Origin: Rhizomicrobium sp.
Lineage (GTDB): Bacteria; Pseudomonadota; Alphaproteobacteria; Micropepsales; Micropepsaceae
Length of the DNA stretch: 35,167 nt
Direction: 5' to 3'
Assembly (NCBI GenBank): GCA_025451875.1
Contig: JANWJQ010000015.1
Location: 1-35,167 of the forward strand
Shown: piece after piece, positions 16,968-26,228 of the stretch
Layout: the number at the start of each line of letters is the position of its first letter
Numbering within the stretch: the first letter of the stretch is position 1
The notes under the pieces: model-generated
Databases searched by the model: none
Seen by the model: only the letters and a program-made list of their open reading frames with translations
What the model was told of the DNA's origin: nothing
Translations under genes and position numbers: made by a program

Positions 16968-18209
16968 TCACTCAACGGACCGGCATGTCTCGAGCCCTCT
17001 TTTCATAGCAAGCACTGAGAATCGAGCCGACCAGATCCGCGCCGTGTTGTCGGCTGATGCCGTGACGATGCATCTACCATTGGGCGAATAAAAGGCTGCG
17101 TTGACGAAACTGTTGTGTCCCGAAAGAACCGCGATCTGAACGCCGGTGGCGGCGTCCCAAATACGCGCCGATTTGTCGTCTGATGCGGTCAGCACGCGCA
17201 TGCCGTCAGGCGAATAGACAACAGACTCCACGAAGTTGTTATGCCCAACCAGAATTTCGAGGCAGCGGCCAGTGATGGCATCCCAGATGCGCACGGTGCC
17301 ATCAAATGACGCGGTCGCGATGCGCGCGCTGTTTGGCGAAAAGGCCGCGGAGCTGACCACGTTCGAGTGCCCGGACAGCATTAGGAGCGCCATGCCCGTG
17401 TCGGCGTCCCAGAGCCGTGCCGTCTTGTCGTCCGAGGTCGTGACGATGACTTTCCCGTCCCGCGAATAGGCGGCGAAAATCACATGATCCCGGTGGCCCG
17501 CGAGCACAGTGAGTTGCCGTCCCGTCGCCGCATCCCAGATACGCGCCGTATCGTCGTCCGACACGGTGACGACCCGGCGCCCGTCCGGCGAGAATATCGC
17601 CGACCAGACGCGATCGCGGTGACCGGACAGTACTGCCAGCGGAGCGCCTGTCGCCGCGTTCCAGATGCGTGCGGTTTTATCCAGCGAGGCAGTCACAATG
17701 CGGGCGCCATCCGCGGAATATGCCGCCGTCTCCACGATGCCATGGTGTCCGGCGAGCACCGCGTGTTGCTTTCCCGTGGCCGCATCCCAGATGCGGGCCG
17801 TATTGTCGGCCGAGCTGGTAACGACGTACCTGCCGTCGGGCGAAAAGGCGGCCGAAGTTACATAGTCTTTGTGTCCCGACAATACAGCGCGCTCCGCCCC
17901 CGTCGCCGCGTTCCAGACCCGCGCGGTTCTGTCCTGCGAAGCCGTGACGATCCATTTTCCATCCGGCGAATAGGCCCCAGACCAGACAGCCGCCTTGTGA
18001 CCTCGGAGCAGGGAAAGCACCGTGCCATCGATGGGCACGTCCGGAATCCGATCCGCTCCCGGGCGAGACTCGGCTTGCTTTATCGTTGCAGCGAACGATG
18101 GCCGGCTCTCGCATTGCGAACCAAACACCAGAAGCGGGATGATGAAGAGGCCGGCGGGTGGGTTCCGCATCCTCGCGCCGGCGCGCTCAAGAACTTGCAG
18201 GCACCGCAT
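16968..18209 (-). CDS. Exported or membrane-anchored WD40-repeat protein (eight repeats)
   Basis: Starting at the ATG at 18209 (TAATG overlap with the upstream stop, GAAGGG before it) the protein has 413 residues; an ATG at 18170 is the alternative. A hydrophobic N-terminal segment (AGLFIIPLLVFG) suggests export or anchoring. Eight WD40 blades follow, each of the form L-x-GH...V..A..SPDG..IVTAS.D.TARIWDAATG, covering nearly all the rest. A seven- or eight-bladed propeller for protein binding is expected. The repeats are very similar to each other at protein level, which points to recent internal duplication or gene conversion. It is coupled to the membrane protein gene upstream. No catalytic domain is attached, which is unusual for bacterial WD40 proteins. 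Confidence 0.85.
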   Translation of the reverse strand: MRCLQVLERAGARMRNPPAGLFIIPLLVFGSQCESRPSFAATIKQAESRPGADRIPDVPIDGTVLSLLRGHKAAVWSGAYSPDGKWIVTASQDRTARVWNAATGAERAVLSGHKDYVTSAAFSPDGRYVVTSSADNTARIWDAATGKQHAVLAGHHGIVETAAYSADGARIVTASLDKTARIWNAATGAPLAVLSGHRDRVWSAIFSPDGRRVVTVSDDDTARIWDAATGRQLTVLAGHRDHVIFAAYSRDGKVIVTTSDDKTARLWDADTGMALLMLSGHSNVVSSAAFSPNSARIATASFDGTVRIWDAITGRCLEILVGHNNFVESVVYSPDGMRVLTASDDKSARIWDAATGVQIAVLSGHNSFVNAAFYSPNGRCIVTASADNTARIWSARFSVLAMKRGLETCRSVE

Positions 18210-19585
18210 TATCGCTCGGCCCTTCGTTTCGAAATGGGCGAATCCAGCGTGAGATAGAACAGCGAAATCAGCGCCGCGACATCCAGAAAGTACAGGTAGC
18301 GGTAGTCGCAGGCGATGGAAATAAAGAAAAACGTCAGTGTGAAGATCAGGCCACCCGTCAGCATCGCCGCGATGACGATGTCCGCATCGCGGCGGCGGTA
18401 CAGCAGAAACGCAAGCGCGCCTACCGCAAGCAGAGCCGACGCGGCGTGCGATAACAGCGGCGTGCCCAAGAATGTCGCAGCATAGTCCTTCAACGCCATG
18501 TCGCGGGCATCCATGCGCTCGGGAATGCCCAGCGCCCGCAACAGTCCAGGCGGACCATCGACGCCGGCCATATACGGCACGCATGCGCTAAGATTTGGCG
18601 CGAGAAATACCCAGCGAAATATCTCCGCGCGCGTTTTCAGGTACAAACCGGTGTGTCGAAAGGCAAGATCGCGCCATTGCTCCGCGATCGTCTCCGACTT
18701 CGCGTTGCCAAGGGCAGTAAGCAGCGATTTCGAATTCGACAGCGTATCGTTGCGCTCCGCCGAATACAGCGAAACTCCATTCGCCCGAAGATTCTTCGTC
18801 AGCGAAGGATCGCTGGCTGCCATGACATCCAGTCTGTAACCGGGCGAGGATTTCAACGCGCCCACGAGATCGTAGGTCTGCAGAAGTCGAAACTGGGCCG
18901 CTGGGCCGGTATGCCCGTGAACCCGGGGGCCGAGCAACGCCTGCGCGGCCAGTGCAACGATGGCCGCAACCGCAATTCCGGCCAACCCATACAACAAGCC
19001 GTCCCGCCCTGAGGACCGCCGTGCCGTGATCCCCGCTAATGCGACGACCGCCGGCGGCAGCAGAACGATCCCGTTTTGTCGAACGAGGGCGGCGGCCGAC
19101 AAAAGGAAAAAGCACAGGGTGAGAAGCGCGAAGCGCGGGCGCGGCAACCGCCAATAGACCGTCGCATTGACGAGACAGACATGGCCCGCAACCGCCAGGG
19201 CCGCGAACAACACATCCTTCCAGACGATGCCCGGATAGAGAAAAAATTGCGGCGATGCGATGCAAACAAAGGCGACGAGCACGGTCGCCCAATTTTTTTT
19301 GCCGGGTAGCCTCGACAGCGACAGCAACCCGCCGAAGAGCAACAGCGTATCGAATGTCACAAACAATCCGGTTCCCGGCAGAACCGCGTCAAAGATGCCG
19401 AGCAGCCAGGACATCGCGTAGGGATGCCAGTTCGCATAAACGGCCTGACGGCCCTCTAGAAGCTGGACTTCCGAGTCGTACGAGAGATGACCGGGCCAGT
19501 TGGCAATCAAGCACAAGACAAGCCCGAGACCGATGACGAGAGTCGCAAGCCAAGCCATCGATGGTATGCGGGCGTTAAGCAACAC
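18209..19585 (-). CDS. Polytopic membrane protein, GT-C glycosyltransferase-like
   Basis: The 458-residue protein starts at a GTG (19585) after GGGGAAAGG. It has about ten to twelve membrane helices. After the first helix the loop reads NWPGHLSYDSEVQLLEG, followed by NWHP. This acidic first loop with a later His-Pro is typical of lipid-linked GT-C glycosyltransferases. A large non-membrane part (about 215-330) lies between helix blocks. It may transfer sugar from a polyprenyl carrier to an exported acceptor, but substrate and acceptor are unknown. The stop overlaps the WD40 start by one base, so the two proteins are made together. Confidence 0.7.
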   Translation of the reverse strand: MLLNARIPSMAWLATLVIGLGLVLCLIANWPGHLSYDSEVQLLEGRQAVYANWHPYAMSWLLGIFDAVLPGTGLFVTFDTLLLFGGLLSLSRLPGKKNWATVLVAFVCIASPQFFLYPGIVWKDVLFAALAVAGHVCLVNATVYWRLPRPRFALLTLCFFLLSAAALVRQNGIVLLPPAVVALAGITARRSSGRDGLLYGLAGIAVAAIVALAAQALLGPRVHGHTGPAAQFRLLQTYDLVGALKSSPGYRLDVMAASDPSLTKNLRANGVSLYSAERNDTLSNSKSLLTALGNAKSETIAEQWRDLAFRHTGLYLKTRAEIFRWVFLAPNLSACVPYMAGVDGPPGLLRALGIPERMDARDMALKDYAATFLGTPLLSHAASALLAVGALAFLLYRRRDADIVIAAMLTGGLIFTLTFFFISIACDYRYLYFLDVAALISLFYLTLDSPISKRRAER

Positions 19586-19922
19586 TCACCTTTCCCCGGC
19601 ACGGCGACGGCGACTCCTGTTCATCCAGCTTGAAGCATTCGCACGGTTCAGTCTGCATCGATGATTGGGAGGCCACCGATAACCCCGCATATCGCGGGAC
19701 CCAAGCGCTTCGGTGGTTGGCAAACATCAACGAACGAGGATTCCATAGCAGCCTCAACGCGTTACCAGAGCAACCGCGATCGGAGCCGGGTGCGGATGCC
19801 GTGGGCGCTCGTTGAACATCGCAAACTCTGTTAGCCTTTTGCCATTGTCCGTCCGCGTGTCGCGCCGCATTTCGATATTTCAGACATCGATTTCATTCAG
19901 CCTTTCCGCAAAGGAGAAACCA
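19586..19922. other. Divergent promoter region of the RiPP-like locus
   Basis: The stretch separates the minus-strand membrane protein gene from the plus-strand precursor gene and must hold both promoters. Upstream in-frame starts for the precursor (for example at 19812) have no binding site. No other gene is seen. Confidence 0.5.
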
Positions 19923-20219
19923 ATGGCCGATATTCCGCCGCCGCCGCCAAAGCCGGCGATAGTCGAAATAGATAAGACCAAACAGCTAGACATGGCCGAA
20001 CGCATCAAGGCGATCCGGGTATCGTTCGCGAAGACCCGCGAATCCTTGCAGTCAGGTGCTGCGGCGGCGGGCATCCGCGTCGCGCAGGACGATTTCAACC
20101 AGGCCCTGCCGTTCCAGAACTTCAATCAGTTCACGAACTTCAACGACTTCACCAATTTCAACAACTTCACGAACTTCAACGACTTCACCAATTTCAACAA
20201 TTTCGGCAATGGCGGGTGA
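19923..20219 (+). CDS. RiPP-like precursor peptide with Phe-x-Asn/Asp repeats
   Basis: The start at 19923 is fixed by AAGGAG six bases upstream and gives 98 residues. Residues 1-9 are MADIPPPPP. A charged helical leader follows (DKTKQLDMAERIKAIRVSFAKT), with Ala/Gly-rich spacing. The last 35 or so residues are a putative core: LPFQNFNQ, then two copies of FTNFNDFTNFNN, then FGNGG. Every third residue is Phe and the third position of each triplet is Asn, Asp or Gln. Radical SAM cyclophane (triceptide) systems modify aromatic-x-x triplets of this kind, which fits the maturase gene 21 bases downstream. No signal peptide or membrane helix is present. The leader/core boundary is inferred. Confidence 0.85.
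   Translation: MADIPPPPPKPAIVEIDKTKQLDMAERIKAIRVSFAKTRESLQSGAAAAGIRVAQDDFNQALPFQNFNQFTNFNDFTNFNNFTNFNDFTNFNNFGNGG
20130..20201 (+). repeat. Tandem 36-bp repeat in the precursor core
   Basis: Two adjacent 36-bp units (20130-20165 and 20166-20201) are identical except for the last base (C or T, both AAC/AAT for Asn). Each encodes FTNFNDFTNFNN. Each unit also contains two 18-bp half-units differing at a few bases. The near-identity shows recent duplication of a coding block that sets core length. Confidence 0.9.
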
Positions 20220-20240
20220 TGCGCAACGCTGGACTCGTTC

Positions 20241-22193
20241 ATGTCTTCCGCTATCGAACGTCCTCTTGCCCGGCCGGGTAACACGATTGAAACGGCACCA
20301 CTCGGGCTGCTCGTTCTGCAGCCCACGACTTTTTGCAACATCGACTGCCGCTATTGCTATCTGAGCCAGCGATCTGAAAACCACCGGATGAGCCCACACA
20401 CCGTGCAGGCGGTCGCGCGGTTCGTCCGCGATATACCTCTGCGCGACCAACGGTTGTCCGTCGTATGGCATGCCGGCGAACCGCTGGCCGCGCCGGTGGC
20501 GTTTTATGAAACTGCATTCCGGACTCTGAAAGCCGAAGCCGGTCCGATCGAATTCGAACATCATATCCAGACCAACGCGACGTTGATCAACGACGAATGG
20601 TGCGCGCTCTTCAAGCAATGGGGGGTGCATGTCGGCGTCAGCATCGATGGTCCCAAGGCGATAAACGACGCCCATCGCGTCGATCGCGCCAATCGTGGAA
20701 CGTTCGATCGCGTGATGCGCGGCATCGCAAAGCTCCGCGAACACGGCATACCGTTCACTGTGATCGGCGTTCTGACACAGGATGCCTTGAAAGCACCTGA
20801 GGACTTCTGGGCGTTTTTCGAGACACTGGGCGCCACACAAGTCGCCTTCAACGTGGAAGAACAGGAAGGCATCAACGCCTTGTCGACGCTTACGGAAGAC
20901 GGCTATGGGGATTTTCGCCGGTTCGTCGAGCGCATCGCTGAACTGCGGCGCAGCGGCCCGAAGCTCCGCCAACGGGAATTCGACGGCATGCGGGGACATC
21001 TAACGGCGCCGCCCGGTAGCGACCTGCAACGCGCCGACAACATGCCCGGCGCAATCATCAACATAGACTTCGAAGGCAATGTGACGACGTTTTCACCGGA
21101 ATTGCTGGGCGCCGAACACGACGACTACGGAACATTTCACTGGGGCAACGTGCACCGCGATGATTGGCAGGGCGTCGTGTCTCATCCGAACTTTCGCAAA
21201 GCCTATGCCGACATATTGGCCGGCGTTGCGCTCTGCCGGGAGACATGCGCGTATTTTTCCGTCTGTGGCGGCGGCAACCCCAGCAACAAGCTCACCGAAC
21301 TCGGCACCTTTGCCGGGACGGAAACCCAATTCTGCAAGCTGCATATACAGACCTTCGCTGACGTCGTGATCGAGGAGCTTGAGCGCGAACTATCATCCGG
21401 AGATTTGAAGGAGGACGTCTTGCCGCAAAGCAATCCTGTGAACACCGGCGCATCGAAGCCCGCAAAAGAGGTGGACATCTATTTGGCGGGCGCCGGCATC
21501 GCGTTTCCCGCGCATCTGACGATCGAAACCGTGGAAATCCTCACGGCCTGCAAGCGGATCTGCACCAACCTGCAGGAATCGATGCTGACGGGATTGCCAC
21601 AGGATCTGAAGGACAAATGCATCAGCCTCTGGCCGCTCTATCAGGACGGCCGGATTCGCAGCGAAAACTACAATGACGTGTTCAACGCCATCGTCGAAAT
21701 CGCTGAGGTCGAGCGGCCGATCGCCTGGCTGACGCCCGGACATCCGGTGATATTCGACAGCGTCACGACCTCGCTTCTGAACGCGGGAAAGTTACGGGGA
21801 TGGAACGTTCGGGTCATTCCAGCGATATCTTCCATCGACACGATGCTTGCCGAGCTGGGCTTCGATCCCGCCCACGGAATGCTGATCCATGAGGCGACCG
21901 GTCTTGTGAGGCGGCGCATTCCGCTGCACCGCACGGTCGCTGCGATGCTCCTGCAGCCGGCAGTGTTCGACGTCAACGTTGCGATTATCGACGCGGGGAG
22001 CAAAGGTCCAGATCTGTCGCCGCTGCGGGACTACATTGCGGAATTTCATGCGCCGGATCACAAATGCGCGTTCATCCGGTCTTCATCCGGCTTTGGCGAG
22101 CCCGATCTTGTGACCTGGACAGCCCTGCGCGATCTTACGAACGTGCCTTACGACAGGATCGCCGGCTCGACATTGTTCGTTCCGCCCGCCTGA
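20241..22193 (+). CDS. Radical SAM/SPASM-like maturase fused to a tetrapyrrole methylase-like (borosin-type) domain
   Basis: This 650-residue protein has two enzymes in one chain. Residues about 20-250 form a radical SAM domain with the cluster motif C32-x3-C36-x2-C39 (CNIDCRYCYL), then HAGEPL and SIDGP motifs typical of peptide maturases. A Cys-rich segment near 332-345 (CRETCAYFSVCGGG) and a later Cys (TQFCKLH) resemble the SPASM auxiliary-cluster region. Residues about 410-600 match the TP-methylase fold of borosin N-methyltransferases: IYLAGAGIAFPAHLTIETVE, WPLYQDGRIRSENY, TPGHPVIF and AELGFDPAHGMLIHEA. Predicted roles are cyclophane-type cross-linking and backbone N-methylation of the precursor. 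The start at 20241 is the first ATG and lacks a strong binding site. Confidence 0.85.
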   Translation: MSSAIERPLARPGNTIETAPLGLLVLQPTTFCNIDCRYCYLSQRSENHRMSPHTVQAVARFVRDIPLRDQRLSVVWHAGEPLAAPVAFYETAFRTLKAEAGPIEFEHHIQTNATLINDEWCALFKQWGVHVGVSIDGPKAINDAHRVDRANRGTFDRVMRGIAKLREHGIPFTVIGVLTQDALKAPEDFWAFFETLGATQVAFNVEEQEGINALSTLTEDGYGDFRRFVERIAELRRSGPKLRQREFDGMRGHLTAPPGSDLQRADNMPGAIINIDFEGNVTTFSPELLGAEHDDYGTFHWGNVHRDDWQGVVSHPNFRKAYADILAGVALCRETCAYFSVCGGGNPSNKLTELGTFAGTETQFCKLHIQTFADVVIEELERELSSGDLKEDVLPQSNPVNTGASKPAKEVDIYLAGAGIAFPAHLTIETVEILTACKRICTNLQESMLTGLPQDLKDKCISLWPLYQDGRIRSENYNDVFNAIVEIAEVERPIAWLTPGHPVIFDSVTTSLLNAGKLRGWNVRVIPAISSIDTMLAELGFDPAHGMLIHEATGLVRRRIPLHRTVAAMLLQPAVFDVNVAIIDAGSKGPDLSPLRDYIAEFHAPDHKCAFIRSSSGFGEPDLVTWTALRDLTNVPYDRIAGSTLFVPPA

Positions 22194-22208
22194 CGCGGAG
22201 CCGAAGCG

Positions 22209-23057
22209 ATGGCAACGGATATTTCCGTTTTTCCGGGCGGCGGATCGCCGGTCGTGCTTTATCAACCCGGCGGCGATCTGCCCGAGCAGCGCATCCATTT
22301 GAGCCGCGGGACCTGCCCCGCGCGCGCAATCGACGAAAACCCGCCCTACTACATGGATGGCGCGCGCGTGCCGGTCCCCGACTGGAGGCCGGCGACGGCA
22401 GACGAAAATGCCGATCTCTGGTCCCGGAGCGCGCCGGCCGCGCATTGCGCCGTCGGCATCGTGCGGTTGTTCAATCCTTATATGTTGCGGCTCTTTGAAA
22501 ACCGCAGGGACATTTTTGAGAACCCGTCCGACGAAGAGACGTTGAAACACCCTTTGATGGCCCTGCTGCTCGACGTCACCGCAAAAAAAGGAATCGTCAT
22601 AAAGCACCTCCACTCCGCCAGAATGGGACGTGACGAACCCGGCCGGATCACCATGACCAAAGCCGTTGGGCAGGATGCGCGCGTCGGGCTTCATTTTGAC
22701 CGCTGGGACATGTGCCCGTTTGACGATCTGGCGAACAGCACTAATCGCGTGGCGATGAACCTGGGACCTACCGACCGATACTTTATTTTCGTGAACCAGA
22801 CGGCGGCCGGCATGTATGCGATGCTGTCAGATATCGGCGTGCAGGTGCCGCGAGATGTCGCGCCGATCGGTAAGGCGTTCATGCAGGCGTTTCCGGATTA
22901 CCCCGTCATCCGCGTGCGGCTGCAACCCGGCGAGGCCTATGTCGCGCCGACCGAAAATATCCTGCATGACGGCAGCAGCGCGGAAGTGAGCAACGTCAAC
23001 CACTATATTTCGGTTCGCGGCCGCTTCGAATTCGTGGATAATCATATCCGATGCTAA
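22209..23057 (+). CDS. Putative Fe(II)/2-oxoglutarate-dependent oxygenase of the RiPP-like locus
   Basis: The 282-residue protein begins 15 bases after the maturase, with GGAG before the ATG. A facial triad can be read as His162-x-Asp164 (GLHFDRWD) and His253 (NILHDGSS), with Arg270 or Arg272 (YISVRGRF) to bind the 2-oxoglutarate carboxylate. The segment between them (RVAMNLGPTDRYFIFVNQ and PGEAYVAPTEN) has the strand pattern of a double-stranded beta-helix. There is no signal peptide. In this context it would hydroxylate the precursor peptide, perhaps at Asn, Asp or Phe beta-carbons. The oxygenase call is from motif spacing; family membership is unconfirmed. Confidence 0.65.
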   Translation: MATDISVFPGGGSPVVLYQPGGDLPEQRIHLSRGTCPARAIDENPPYYMDGARVPVPDWRPATADENADLWSRSAPAAHCAVGIVRLFNPYMLRLFENRRDIFENPSDEETLKHPLMALLLDVTAKKGIVIKHLHSARMGRDEPGRITMTKAVGQDARVGLHFDRWDMCPFDDLANSTNRVAMNLGPTDRYFIFVNQTAAGMYAMLSDIGVQVPRDVAPIGKAFMQAFPDYPVIRVRLQPGEAYVAPTENILHDGSSAEVSNVNHYISVRGRFEFVDNHIRC

Positions 23058-23480
23058 GGGGGGCAGCTAATATCCACATCATTTTCCTCATCGCTTGGAT
23101 ACCGCCCTCCGGCACCGCAGACTCTTGCGCCGCAACCACCCCATCTGGATGGAGCCGTCGCCATGCAGTAGTCTCTACAAACCTGGCACAAAAAATGCGT
23201 CAGGCCACATCTGTCGGTGGCGTTCCCCTTGGAGGACGAAGTTGCGTCTCGTAGTAATTCGTTAGTTCCTCCAGATTTTGGGGGACACATGGATGGATTG
23301 AAAAGGAGGCGGGTTAAAATCCCAGGATTTCGGGCGATTTTTTTCGAGTCTATGATTCCTCCGGCTCCGCCAGCACATTTTGTCCTTTATTACCTATATT
23401 TCCGCTGCTGCGAAACAAATCGCAGCGGCAAAGACTCTCTCGGATGCCAGTTCGGGGGCCGTTTCGTGATGCACTATCTG
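23058..23480. other. Intergenic stretch after the RiPP-like locus
   Basis: No convincing gene. A plus-strand frame from 23217 to 23564 has no clear start signal, but its last 25 or so codons resemble pentapeptide repeats and belong to the remnant described next. No terminator hairpin was identified after the oxygenase gene. Confidence 0.4.
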
Positions 23481-23678: not shown

Positions 23679-26228
23679 CTAGAATCGATAGTCCAATCCC
23701 GCAGACACCGCTTGGCTGGCGTAATTTCCGGTGGGAAGCGTGAGTTCCGCGTCAACGTGCAGGTCGAGTGTGCCGTCGATCTGAACCTTGAGCCCGCCGC
23801 CAACGGTCACCAGATCGCGTGCGGGCGAAAGCCCCACTTTTTGCAAGGCATTGCTGCCGCGCACAAGGCTGGCGGTCACACGGCGATCCGTCGACAGCAC
23901 TTCATGACTGTAGCGAATCCGCATGGACGGCGTGATCTGCGCATTGTCGCCGGTCAGGTAGTTCGCCGAGAGTTCGGCGCCCGCATAGGGGCGAAGCGAA
24001 TCGGTGCTATCTGATGCGAATGTCAGATCGAATGACGGCGCACCGCTTTCGCTGCCGCTATCGCGACGCAGATAGACATAGTCCAGACCGGCACTCGGCG
24101 TGAGAGAGAGCATTCCCGCGGACAAATGCTCCGCCGCTTCCACGGCGCCCGAAATCACCTGACCGTCATAGGAACTGTTCGGGGACATCTGTCCGGTAAC
24201 GGCCTGAAAGGTGCGGTGCGTTTTGAACCGGCCCTGCGTGTAGCCCACCGATGCCGCAAGCGAGAACGTATCGACGGCGTAACCGCCGTAAAGCGCAACA
24301 TTGTAGAGATCGGCGTTACCGTTAGCCCGCGCAAAAGTCTGATCCAGATCGAGGCGGCTGAAACCGCCTGCCAGACCGAGCATCAGTCCGGAGTCGTAAC
24401 GGTGGTCGATACCGCCAAGGAACCCCGCCGTTCGAGTGCTGAAATCCGGCCCGCCGGCATCGCTGTCATATTGAGCAAACTGCCCCTGCATCGTCGCCCA
24501 AATGCCGCCACGCGCACCTGCGTCCGCGCGGTGGGCGACGCGTGACAGGATATTGCCGTCGCTCTGATGCGCATTATCAATCGCGGCAGTCGTCAACGAC
24601 GTTACCACCACGTCATTCGCGGGCTGAAGCGTCAGGTCGAGCTGTTTCTGCGTGGCGGTGAAGAAGTGCATTAGCCCGGGAGCGCCGTTGTCCACCACAG
24701 TGCTGAATTGGCCTGTGATATTTCCCGCACTCAGCAGCGTGTTCACCGAAGCCAGATAAGTGCCGCTCGCATACTGCAGGTCGAGCGTGCCGCCCAGGCT
24801 CGCATTGCCGGTAACGGCAAGTTCGGATGCACCGTTCGGCCCGATGGCGATGTCCAGAACGCCATTTGCACCCTGCGTGTAGTCGCCTTTGACCGTCAGC
24901 GTGCCGATCGAGCCTCCGGGGCTCACGGTGCCGTTGTTCACCGTATTGCCGTTGATTGTGCCGTGGCCCGAAAGCGTGCCATGCGCGCGTACCCTGACAT
25001 TGCTTGCGATGCTTGCTGTCGAATGGGCCGCATCGCCGATCTGCAATGTGCCGCCATCAATTATGGTGGGACCGCGATAGGTATCGTGGCCATTTAACAC
25101 GAGGATGCCGTTGCCTGATTTCGTCAGCGCTCCGGTGCCGGAAATGTTGTTGGACCAGGTCGAATTGTAGCCCGCCGTATCGACCGCCCAGTCCATATCG
25201 AAACTGCCTGGCCCCTGCACCGCAGCGCCGACGTTCAGAAGGCCGTGGCCATAAATGCTGGGATCGCCAATCGGCGTCGCGGTGGTGAGGACCGTCTGCA
25301 CAATCTGTTCCGACGTCATGTAGGGGAACGCCTGGAGCACCAGAGCGACCGCACCGGAGACGACCGGCGCCGCCATCGAAGTGCCGGACATATAGTCATA
25401 GTTGCCGCCTGGCCCGATTCCCGTGCCGGTCGGCACGGTCGAGTAGATGTCCACGCCCGGCGCGGCGATGCACCAGGCAGCATCGATGCCGCAGCGATTC
25501 GAGAAGCTGGCGATCTGGTTGTTCGCGTCGACGGCGACGACGGCGATGAACTGTTTCTGCAGATCGGGCATGGTCTCGGGCAGGTCGGCCAAATCCCATG
25601 GCTTGGTATCACTGAAGTTGCCGGCAGCAAATACGAAGATCATGCCGTGATCCTCGGCACTCTTGAGATTGTCGTGGATGTAGTTCAGGTAATCCTGACC
25701 GTAGAAACCGACAAACGTGACCCAGCTGTTGCTGGCGATGCGCACGCCCGCGTCAACCGCTCTCTGCAGGCCGTCGAAGAATTCGGTGTTGGTCTCCAAG
25801 ACATCGAAGGACGACAGGATGTTGAATGACATGACGTTGGCGCCATAGGCGACGCCCTGCATGCCGACGCCGTCGCGATTGGCCGCGATGGTGCCAGCGT
25901 CATGCGTGCCGTGACCGCTGAGGTCCGTCAGGTCTGTCGTATCGAATAGATAGTCGTAACCGCTGAGAGTCTTGCCGGCGAATTCTGGATTCGTGGGATC
26001 GAGGCCGGTGTCGAACAGCGCGACCGTAACACCGGCGCCGGTGTAGCCAAGCGCATACGCCTCGTCGGCGTGAATCTGCGCTAGCGCGCCCGATGCATAA
26101 TACTCCGCCGTGTCGAACGAAGATGGCGAAGTCTGCGCATCCGCATGTCCCATTAGAGCCAGAAAGCTGGCTGCAAGACTTAGTCCCGCGCTCAAGCGCA
26201 CGTTTCGTCCCCAATTGCCCGCACGCAT
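23679..26228 (-). CDS. Subtilisin-like serine protease autotransporter
   Basis: The 849-residue protein has a signal peptide (MRAGNWGRNVRLSAGLSLAA..., ending near ADA-QT). The S8 peptidase domain (about 40-335) carries the full triad: Asp73 in VALFDTGLD, His106 in SGHGTHDAG and Ser near 282 in SGTSMAAP. A passenger segment follows with an autotransporter-associated beta-strand repeat (TGALTKSGNGILVLNG and the glycine-rich repeats after it). The last 280 residues are an autotransporter beta-barrel ending in LDYRF, the C-terminal aromatic signal for outer-membrane insertion. It is therefore secreted by the type V route and displayed or released as a protease. The ATG at 26228 follows GGGGGCAGG. 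An AraC-type regulator gene lies directly upstream. Confidence 0.92.
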   Translation of the reverse strand: MRAGNWGRNVRLSAGLSLAASFLALMGHADAQTSPSSFDTAEYYASGALAQIHADEAYALGYTGAGVTVALFDTGLDPTNPEFAGKTLSGYDYLFDTTDLTDLSGHGTHDAGTIAANRDGVGMQGVAYGANVMSFNILSSFDVLETNTEFFDGLQRAVDAGVRIASNSWVTFVGFYGQDYLNYIHDNLKSAEDHGMIFVFAAGNFSDTKPWDLADLPETMPDLQKQFIAVVAVDANNQIASFSNRCGIDAAWCIAAPGVDIYSTVPTGTGIGPGGNYDYMSGTSMAAPVVSGAVALVLQAFPYMTSEQIVQTVLTTATPIGDPSIYGHGLLNVGAAVQGPGSFDMDWAVDTAGYNSTWSNNISGTGALTKSGNGILVLNGHDTYRGPTIIDGGTLQIGDAAHSTASIASNVRVRAHGTLSGHGTINGNTVNNGTVSPGGSIGTLTVKGDYTQGANGVLDIAIGPNGASELAVTGNASLGGTLDLQYASGTYLASVNTLLSAGNITGQFSTVVDNGAPGLMHFFTATQKQLDLTLQPANDVVVTSLTTAAIDNAHQSDGNILSRVAHRADAGARGGIWATMQGQFAQYDSDAGGPDFSTRTAGFLGGIDHRYDSGLMLGLAGGFSRLDLDQTFARANGNADLYNVALYGGYAVDTFSLAASVGYTQGRFKTHRTFQAVTGQMSPNSSYDGQVISGAVEAAEHLSAGMLSLTPSAGLDYVYLRRDSGSESGAPSFDLTFASDSTDSLRPYAGAELSANYLTGDNAQITPSMRIRYSHEVLSTDRRVTASLVRGSNALQKVGLSPARDLVTVGGGLKVQIDGTLDLHVDAELTLPTGNYASQAVSAGLDYRF

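Follow-up and report, generated by a model that had tools for sequence, protein, structure and literature searches.

The locus analyzed here encodes a short, phenylalanine-rich repeat peptide whose neighboring maturase joins a radical SAM domain and a methylase domain in one reading frame. It lies at 19923-23057 on the plus strand of a 35,167-nucleotide stretch of a Rhizomicrobium sp. contig (hereafter, the window), and comprises three closely spaced genes encoding the precursor, the fusion maturase and an oxygenase, separated by gaps of 21 bases (precursor/maturase) and 15 bases (maturase/oxygenase). A preliminary description of this DNA had claimed such a layout, and the reading frames bear it out (Table 1). 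They also confirm three of its further claims: 1) a repetitive precursor, in which 11 of 11 core triplets start with Phe and end with Asn, Asp or Gln; 2) a CX3CX2C motif, present in the maturase as CNIDCRYC; and 3) the fusion itself, with Pfam Radical_SAM (8.6e-21) and TP_methylase (7.2e-17) matches in a single frame. The general assignments given there could be sharpened, the radical SAM protein to the GrrM/OscB family by profile search, the TP-methylase to a borosin N-methyltransferase by profile and sequence searches, and the Fe(II)/2OG oxygenase to a MicC-like alpha-ketoglutarate oxygenase by sequence search. The genome carries one copy of the operon.

Table 1. Features of the operon and its downstream flank, in window coordinates.
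Feature	Position	Strand	Basis
Precursor gene, 98 aa: leader (residues 1-63) and core FQNFNQFTNFNDFTNFNNFTNFNDFTNFNNFGNGG	19923..20219	+	Strong Shine-Dalgarno sequence AAAGGAGAAACC before ATG
Eleven consecutive Phe-x-x triplets, proposed cyclophane sites	20112..20210	+	Core count, DNA tandem repeat
Fusion maturase, 650 aa	20241..22193	+	ORF, Pfam, NCBIfam
Radical SAM/SPASM domain, GrrM/OscB, residues 26-382; CNIDCRYC, C-terminal SPASM cysteines	20316..21386	+	TIGR04261
Borosin-type alpha-N-methyltransferase (TP_methylase) domain, residues ~411-650; Y..R...Y trio, GHP motif	21471..22190	+	
MicC-like non-haem iron oxygenase, 282 aa; ligands H162, D164, H253	22209..23057	+	phmmer 4e-20 to PDB 9vkm
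Stretch like an IS3-family 3' end, shortly after the operon	23087..23208	not assigned	

The precursor core reads, after residue 63, FQN FNQ FTN FND FTN FNN FTN FND FTN FNN FGN GG, with eight FxN, two FxD and one FxQ triplets in phase (n = 11), a regularity matched by none of 200,000 core shuffles. The array is also a tandem repeat at the DNA level, with 18- and 36-bp periods, and the frame remains open upstream of the ATG at 19923 to a TTG at 19812. In the leader, AERIKAIR (residues 25-32) constitutes an RIxxIR-type motif, and R[ILV]xx[ILV]R or a close form occurs in the leaders of 13 of the 15 other GrrM-linked precursors examined. A profile of this motif built without the present precursor placed it at the top of 423 window ORFs and scored every one of 2000 leader shuffles lower, the score being a modest 9.5 bits; since the motif had been chosen by eye ahead of profile building, the test counts as support and not as independent evidence. 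The TIGR04260 (GrrA/OscA1) profile gave no match to the precursor, and likewise misses 5 of 8 other GrrM-adjacent precursors and places a sixth below cut-off. A hydrophobic stretch is absent from the leader (hydropathy over 15 residues reaches at most 0.43, versus 1.55-2.24 in most relatives), and therefore an export-signal-like feature of most family members is missing here, as it is from the Nostoc and Bryobacterales precursors, both of which adjoin an oxygenase. A Pfam search of the precursor, made with no dedicated profile for the borosin-binding domain, returned no significant match and recognized no such domain.

The radical SAM part of the maturase scores 390.3 bits against the NCBIfam model of the cyclophane-forming maturase GrrM/OscB (cut-off 310), and aligns with 16 GrrM homologues at 37-42% identity. 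According to a review of characterised enzymes (PMC11002830), the cross-links made by OscB run from residue i to i+2, as C4(Phe)-Cbeta(Asn) or C7(Trp)-Cbeta(Asn/Asp). Phe-x-Asn is an OscB cross-link motif, and the precursor core supplies such motifs. In 13 relatives from other genomes, the match is confined to the radical SAM part. Most of the fetched GrrM relatives adjoin a precursor with WxN or FxN repeats, and no precursor was confidently identified beside two of them (L027 and L030). One relative from the class sample is accompanied by a precursor, FPNFPNFNNFPN..., in a style nearly identical to that of the present core (repeat sequence FPNFPNFNNFPNFPN). GrrM exceeds the TIGR04261 cut-off in only 5 of 385 class genomes, the present genome included. 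Because a tree of 18 maturases resolved little around the present protein, no conclusion is drawn from it. At seven alphaproteobacterial loci, a protein of ~250 aa with an HxPNRLNLIL...AFWE-like ending is encoded after or near GrrM; the one tested had no Pfam match, and the protein may be a pathway partner.

Neither Pfam nor NCBIfam holds a family for the third gene product. Over residues 28-263 it matches PDB 9vkm (E = 4e-20), deposited as the alpha-ketoglutarate-dependent non-haem iron oxygenase MicC, and the assignment rests on sequence because the structure model was poor (pLDDT 58) and a fold search returned no significant match. Of the HxD...H...R pattern read in this protein by the preliminary description, the metal ligands stand: H162/D164...H253 are invariant in nine family members, and GLHxD and the distal HD, within a PTE...HDGS-like stretch, are common to nine homologues. 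An arginine after the distal histidine is usual for 2-oxoglutarate binding, but the candidate for this role, the VRG arginine (R269), shows no conservation among family members, and the final R of the pattern is insecure.

A MicC-like gene adjoins a GrrM gene in Psychroserpens, Bryobacterales, Streptomyces specialis, Nostoc and Streptomyces ADI95-16, a pairing that spans Acidobacteria, Bacteroidetes, Cyanobacteria and Streptomyces. The first three pairs were among the loci fetched via the maturase; the Nostoc and Streptomyces ADI95-16 oxygenases, plasmid-borne beside grrM, were found in a search made without regard to radical SAM genes. The class sample has oxygenase homologues in two further genomes, in each case beside an XyeB/YhhB/FxsB-like, cyclophane-type maturase, and two of the six independently found homologues (Streptomyces NBC_01454 and Methylocystis) have no annotated radical SAM gene nearby. 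Because some homologues stand apart from radical SAM genes, the pairing of GrrM and oxygenase is recurrent yet not obligatory. Its recurrence across phyla supports the view that maturase and oxygenase act on one peptide, hints at a subgroup of oxidised triceptides, and gives this oxygenase family a likely substrate.

Several loci of the oxygenase family were observed in other settings. In one genome (G169), a MicC-like oxygenase is encoded directly downstream of an XyeB/YhhB/FxsB-like maturase, and a small upstream ORF repeats GGNFVSAPAMS (Phe-x-Ser); in another (G381), the same order of maturase and oxygenase is accompanied by an NFVSAPS repeat partly masked by N. The gene after one GrrM maturase (locus L039, 2634-3386, genome G280) encodes a distant MicC-like relative (hhalign probability 95.5, E 1.6e-8) that has neither the HxD nor the distal His and is possibly non-catalytic. 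On the Streptomyces sp. ADI95-16 plasmid, the neighbors of grrM and the oxygenase gene include lantibiotic dehydratase, lanthionine synthetase C-like and thiopeptide-type genes, and this may be a RiPP cluster of mixed type. The oxygenase gene of Methylocystis parvus pMpar-1 sits within a TonB receptor and iron ABC transporter gene set.

The C-terminal domain of the maturase finds its best solved relatives in MroMA1, dbOphMA, OphMA and SonM (1e-13 to 1e-6), all of which are borosin backbone N-methyltransferases; apart from these, the only solved protein matched was a uroporphyrinogen methylase, at 0.001. When fusion, GrrM and borosin sequences were aligned jointly, the methylase rows came out misplaced, and the domain was therefore folded alone and not as part of the full-length fusion. 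The resulting model (pLDDT 77), predicted from an alignment containing borosin-like rows, has borosin enzymes as all 50 of its top PDB fold matches (TM 0.79-0.85). A cobalamin-type methylase was rejected, since nearly all sequence matches and all top fold matches are borosin enzymes. As a separate observation, borosin-type methyltransferases at two other loci, L072 (G268) and L076 (G363), end in long repeat tails of (ELNDAA)n- and (EQHVTEQHE)n-like sequence, which differ from the hydrophobic cores described for borosins.

Y62, R68 and Y72 (numbered within the 245-aa domain) are invariant in comparison with four bacterial borosin-like enzymes, and the latter two match SonM R67 and Y71 by spacing, residues whose replacement in SonM by Lys and Phe, respectively, costs ~100-fold (PMC8429565). 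The GHP motif and C-terminal PP of borosin enzymes are likewise retained. Trp occupies the position of SonM Y58, and Pro that of SonM Y93 / OphMA Y98, where the Y93F change in SonM has only a ~two-fold cost (PMC8429565). This divergence, with the loss of a Tyr that contacts SAM in SonM, would fit a conventional GrrM/OscB triceptide pathway that also employs a MicC-like oxygenase and in which the methylase-type domain is inactive or is a scaffold or dimerisation module only; the recurrent set of GrrM and oxygenase, found elsewhere without a methylase domain, favors the same reading. We nevertheless consider it unlikely, since the Y-R-Y trio, GHP and PP have been kept at only ~20-25% identity to any borosin enzyme, unlike the decay of an unused domain, and since the domain carries no stops or frameshifts.

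An active methyltransferase could also target Asn/Gln side chains, the C terminus, or a different peptide altogether. The precursor has no borosin-binding domain recognized by Pfam, and the remainder of the fusion protein leaves over no domain resembling one; in PMC11395268, this domain is described as present in borosin classes 1-3 and not identified in class 4. Moreover, polar Asn abounds in the core, whereas the cores on which methylation by borosin enzymes is described are primarily hydrophobic (PMC11285071). Yet KchMA, a bacterial type III enzyme, accepts Asp too (PMC11395268), the solved close relatives by sequence and by fold are all backbone alpha-N-methyltransferases, and fusion to the precursor's own maturase points to the same peptide, all of which makes a different target rather improbable.

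The preliminary description had proposed co-occurrence of the three genes in other genomes as a check. The GrrM/oxygenase pairing recurs across phyla, but the fusion was found in no second genome searched: none appeared among 195 relatives, 398 phylum genomes and 72,556 plasmid records, nor in a methylase domain search over 385 class genomes. Across 84,980 species, a pattern scan that required exact short protein words, and would let a diverged copy escape, likewise returned no second fusion. The other genomes of the genus that were searched hold no relative near the present maturase in score and none matching its methylase domain, and the viral contigs searched hold no relative. The open literature searched described no protein that fuses a radical SAM domain to a TP-methylase, and the text and figure legends of PMC11395268 mention no radical SAM fusion among its borosin classes. 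As far as the searched genome collections and open papers show, the fusion is new, and an earlier description elsewhere is possible; the cross-linking and oxidation part is of a known kind, and the triceptide part is not new. A mis-assembly joining two unrelated genes, to which a single sighting in a draft genome (81.6% complete, 172 contigs) might point, is highly improbable given 650 codons in one continuous frame, a normal linker, even composition across the joint, tight same-strand genes on both sides, and the unlikelihood of a chance in-frame join of two RiPP-tailoring domains.

The surroundings suggest how the operon may have arrived. The IS3-like stretch begins 30 bases 3' of it (74% identity over 123 bases) and is possibly a scar of horizontal transfer. 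Copies of the segment at 23220-23330, with 78-80% identity, are present on two further contigs of this genome; horizontal gain of the operon is likely. A subtilase autotransporter gene (23679-26228, minus strand) was considered as the source of a leader protease and dropped, as it lies on the opposite strand and nothing links it to the operon. At 18209-19585 on the minus strand is a gene for a hydrophobic protein without a Pfam family, common in the genus, of which this genome has a second copy (43% identity) on contig C154.

We regard it as fairly probable that the locus encodes a triceptide pathway that has gained borosin-type N-methylation by fusion. The fuller reading, to which we assign a probability of about 0.55, is a triceptide-borosin hybrid in which one bifunctional protein both cross-links and backbone-N-methylates a single peptide, with leader recognition by the radical SAM part and subsequent action of the oxygenase. 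The GrrM/OscB domain would bind the precursor leader via the RIxxIR motif and join each core Phe, through C4, to Cbeta of the Asn (perhaps Asp) at i+2, so that the core becomes a chain of three-residue cyclophanes. The fused domain would transfer SAM-derived methyl groups to core backbone amides, and the MicC-like Fe(II)/alpha-ketoglutarate enzyme would then act oxidatively on the same core, with hydroxylation of its residues as the likeliest outcome. GrrM leader recognition would replace the borosin-binding domain, which we propose to be dispensable because the radical SAM part already holds the peptide. The analysis shows directly the gene content, the family to which each domain belongs, the conserved key catalytic residues and the recurrent linkage of GrrM and oxygenase genes; from these we infer each of the chemical steps, the sequence in which they occur, how many sites are modified and a single product bearing all three modifications. 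Because the fusion is known from a single locus, the link between methyltransferase and peptide depends on the two domains being fused and on the conserved active site, and co-conservation lends no support to a substrate for this domain.

Backbone N-methylation and side-chain macrocyclisation are among the most wanted features for stable, cell-permeable peptides. If the hybrid reading is true, a natural enzyme performs both modifications on a simple FxN repeat under the direction of one leader, which would make it a compact tool, and borosin chemistry would be separable from its usual binding domain.

Among the closest known systems, MicC (PDB 9vkm), for whose reaction no account was found in the literature searched, has the G[LM]HxD and HDGS metal-ligand motifs in common with the present oxygenase. 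The GrrM and MicC-like clusters of Nostoc, Streptomyces, Bryobacterales and Psychroserpens have both enzymes side by side, and those of Nostoc, Bryobacterales and Psychroserpens share an adjacent WxN/FxN repeat precursor; they differ in having no methyltransferase domain in the maturase or the fetched flanks. GrrM/OscB triceptides (TIGR04261; OscA/OscB, GrrA/GrrM) share the maturase family, the adjacent precursor of aromatic-x-Asn repeats and the RIxxIR-type leader. The present maturase differs from theirs in its C-terminal methyltransferase domain, not seen in 16 aligned homologues, and the precursor in having no N-terminal hydrophobic (signal-like) stretch of the kind found in most relatives. 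With the borosins (OphMA, MroMA1, SonM/SonA; types 0-XI), the locus shares the methyltransferase domain, its predicted fold and the Y-R-Y residues; here, however, no borosin-binding domain is recognized, the substrate leader is of the GrrA kind, and the methyltransferase domain is fused to a radical SAM maturase instead of to its own core peptide.
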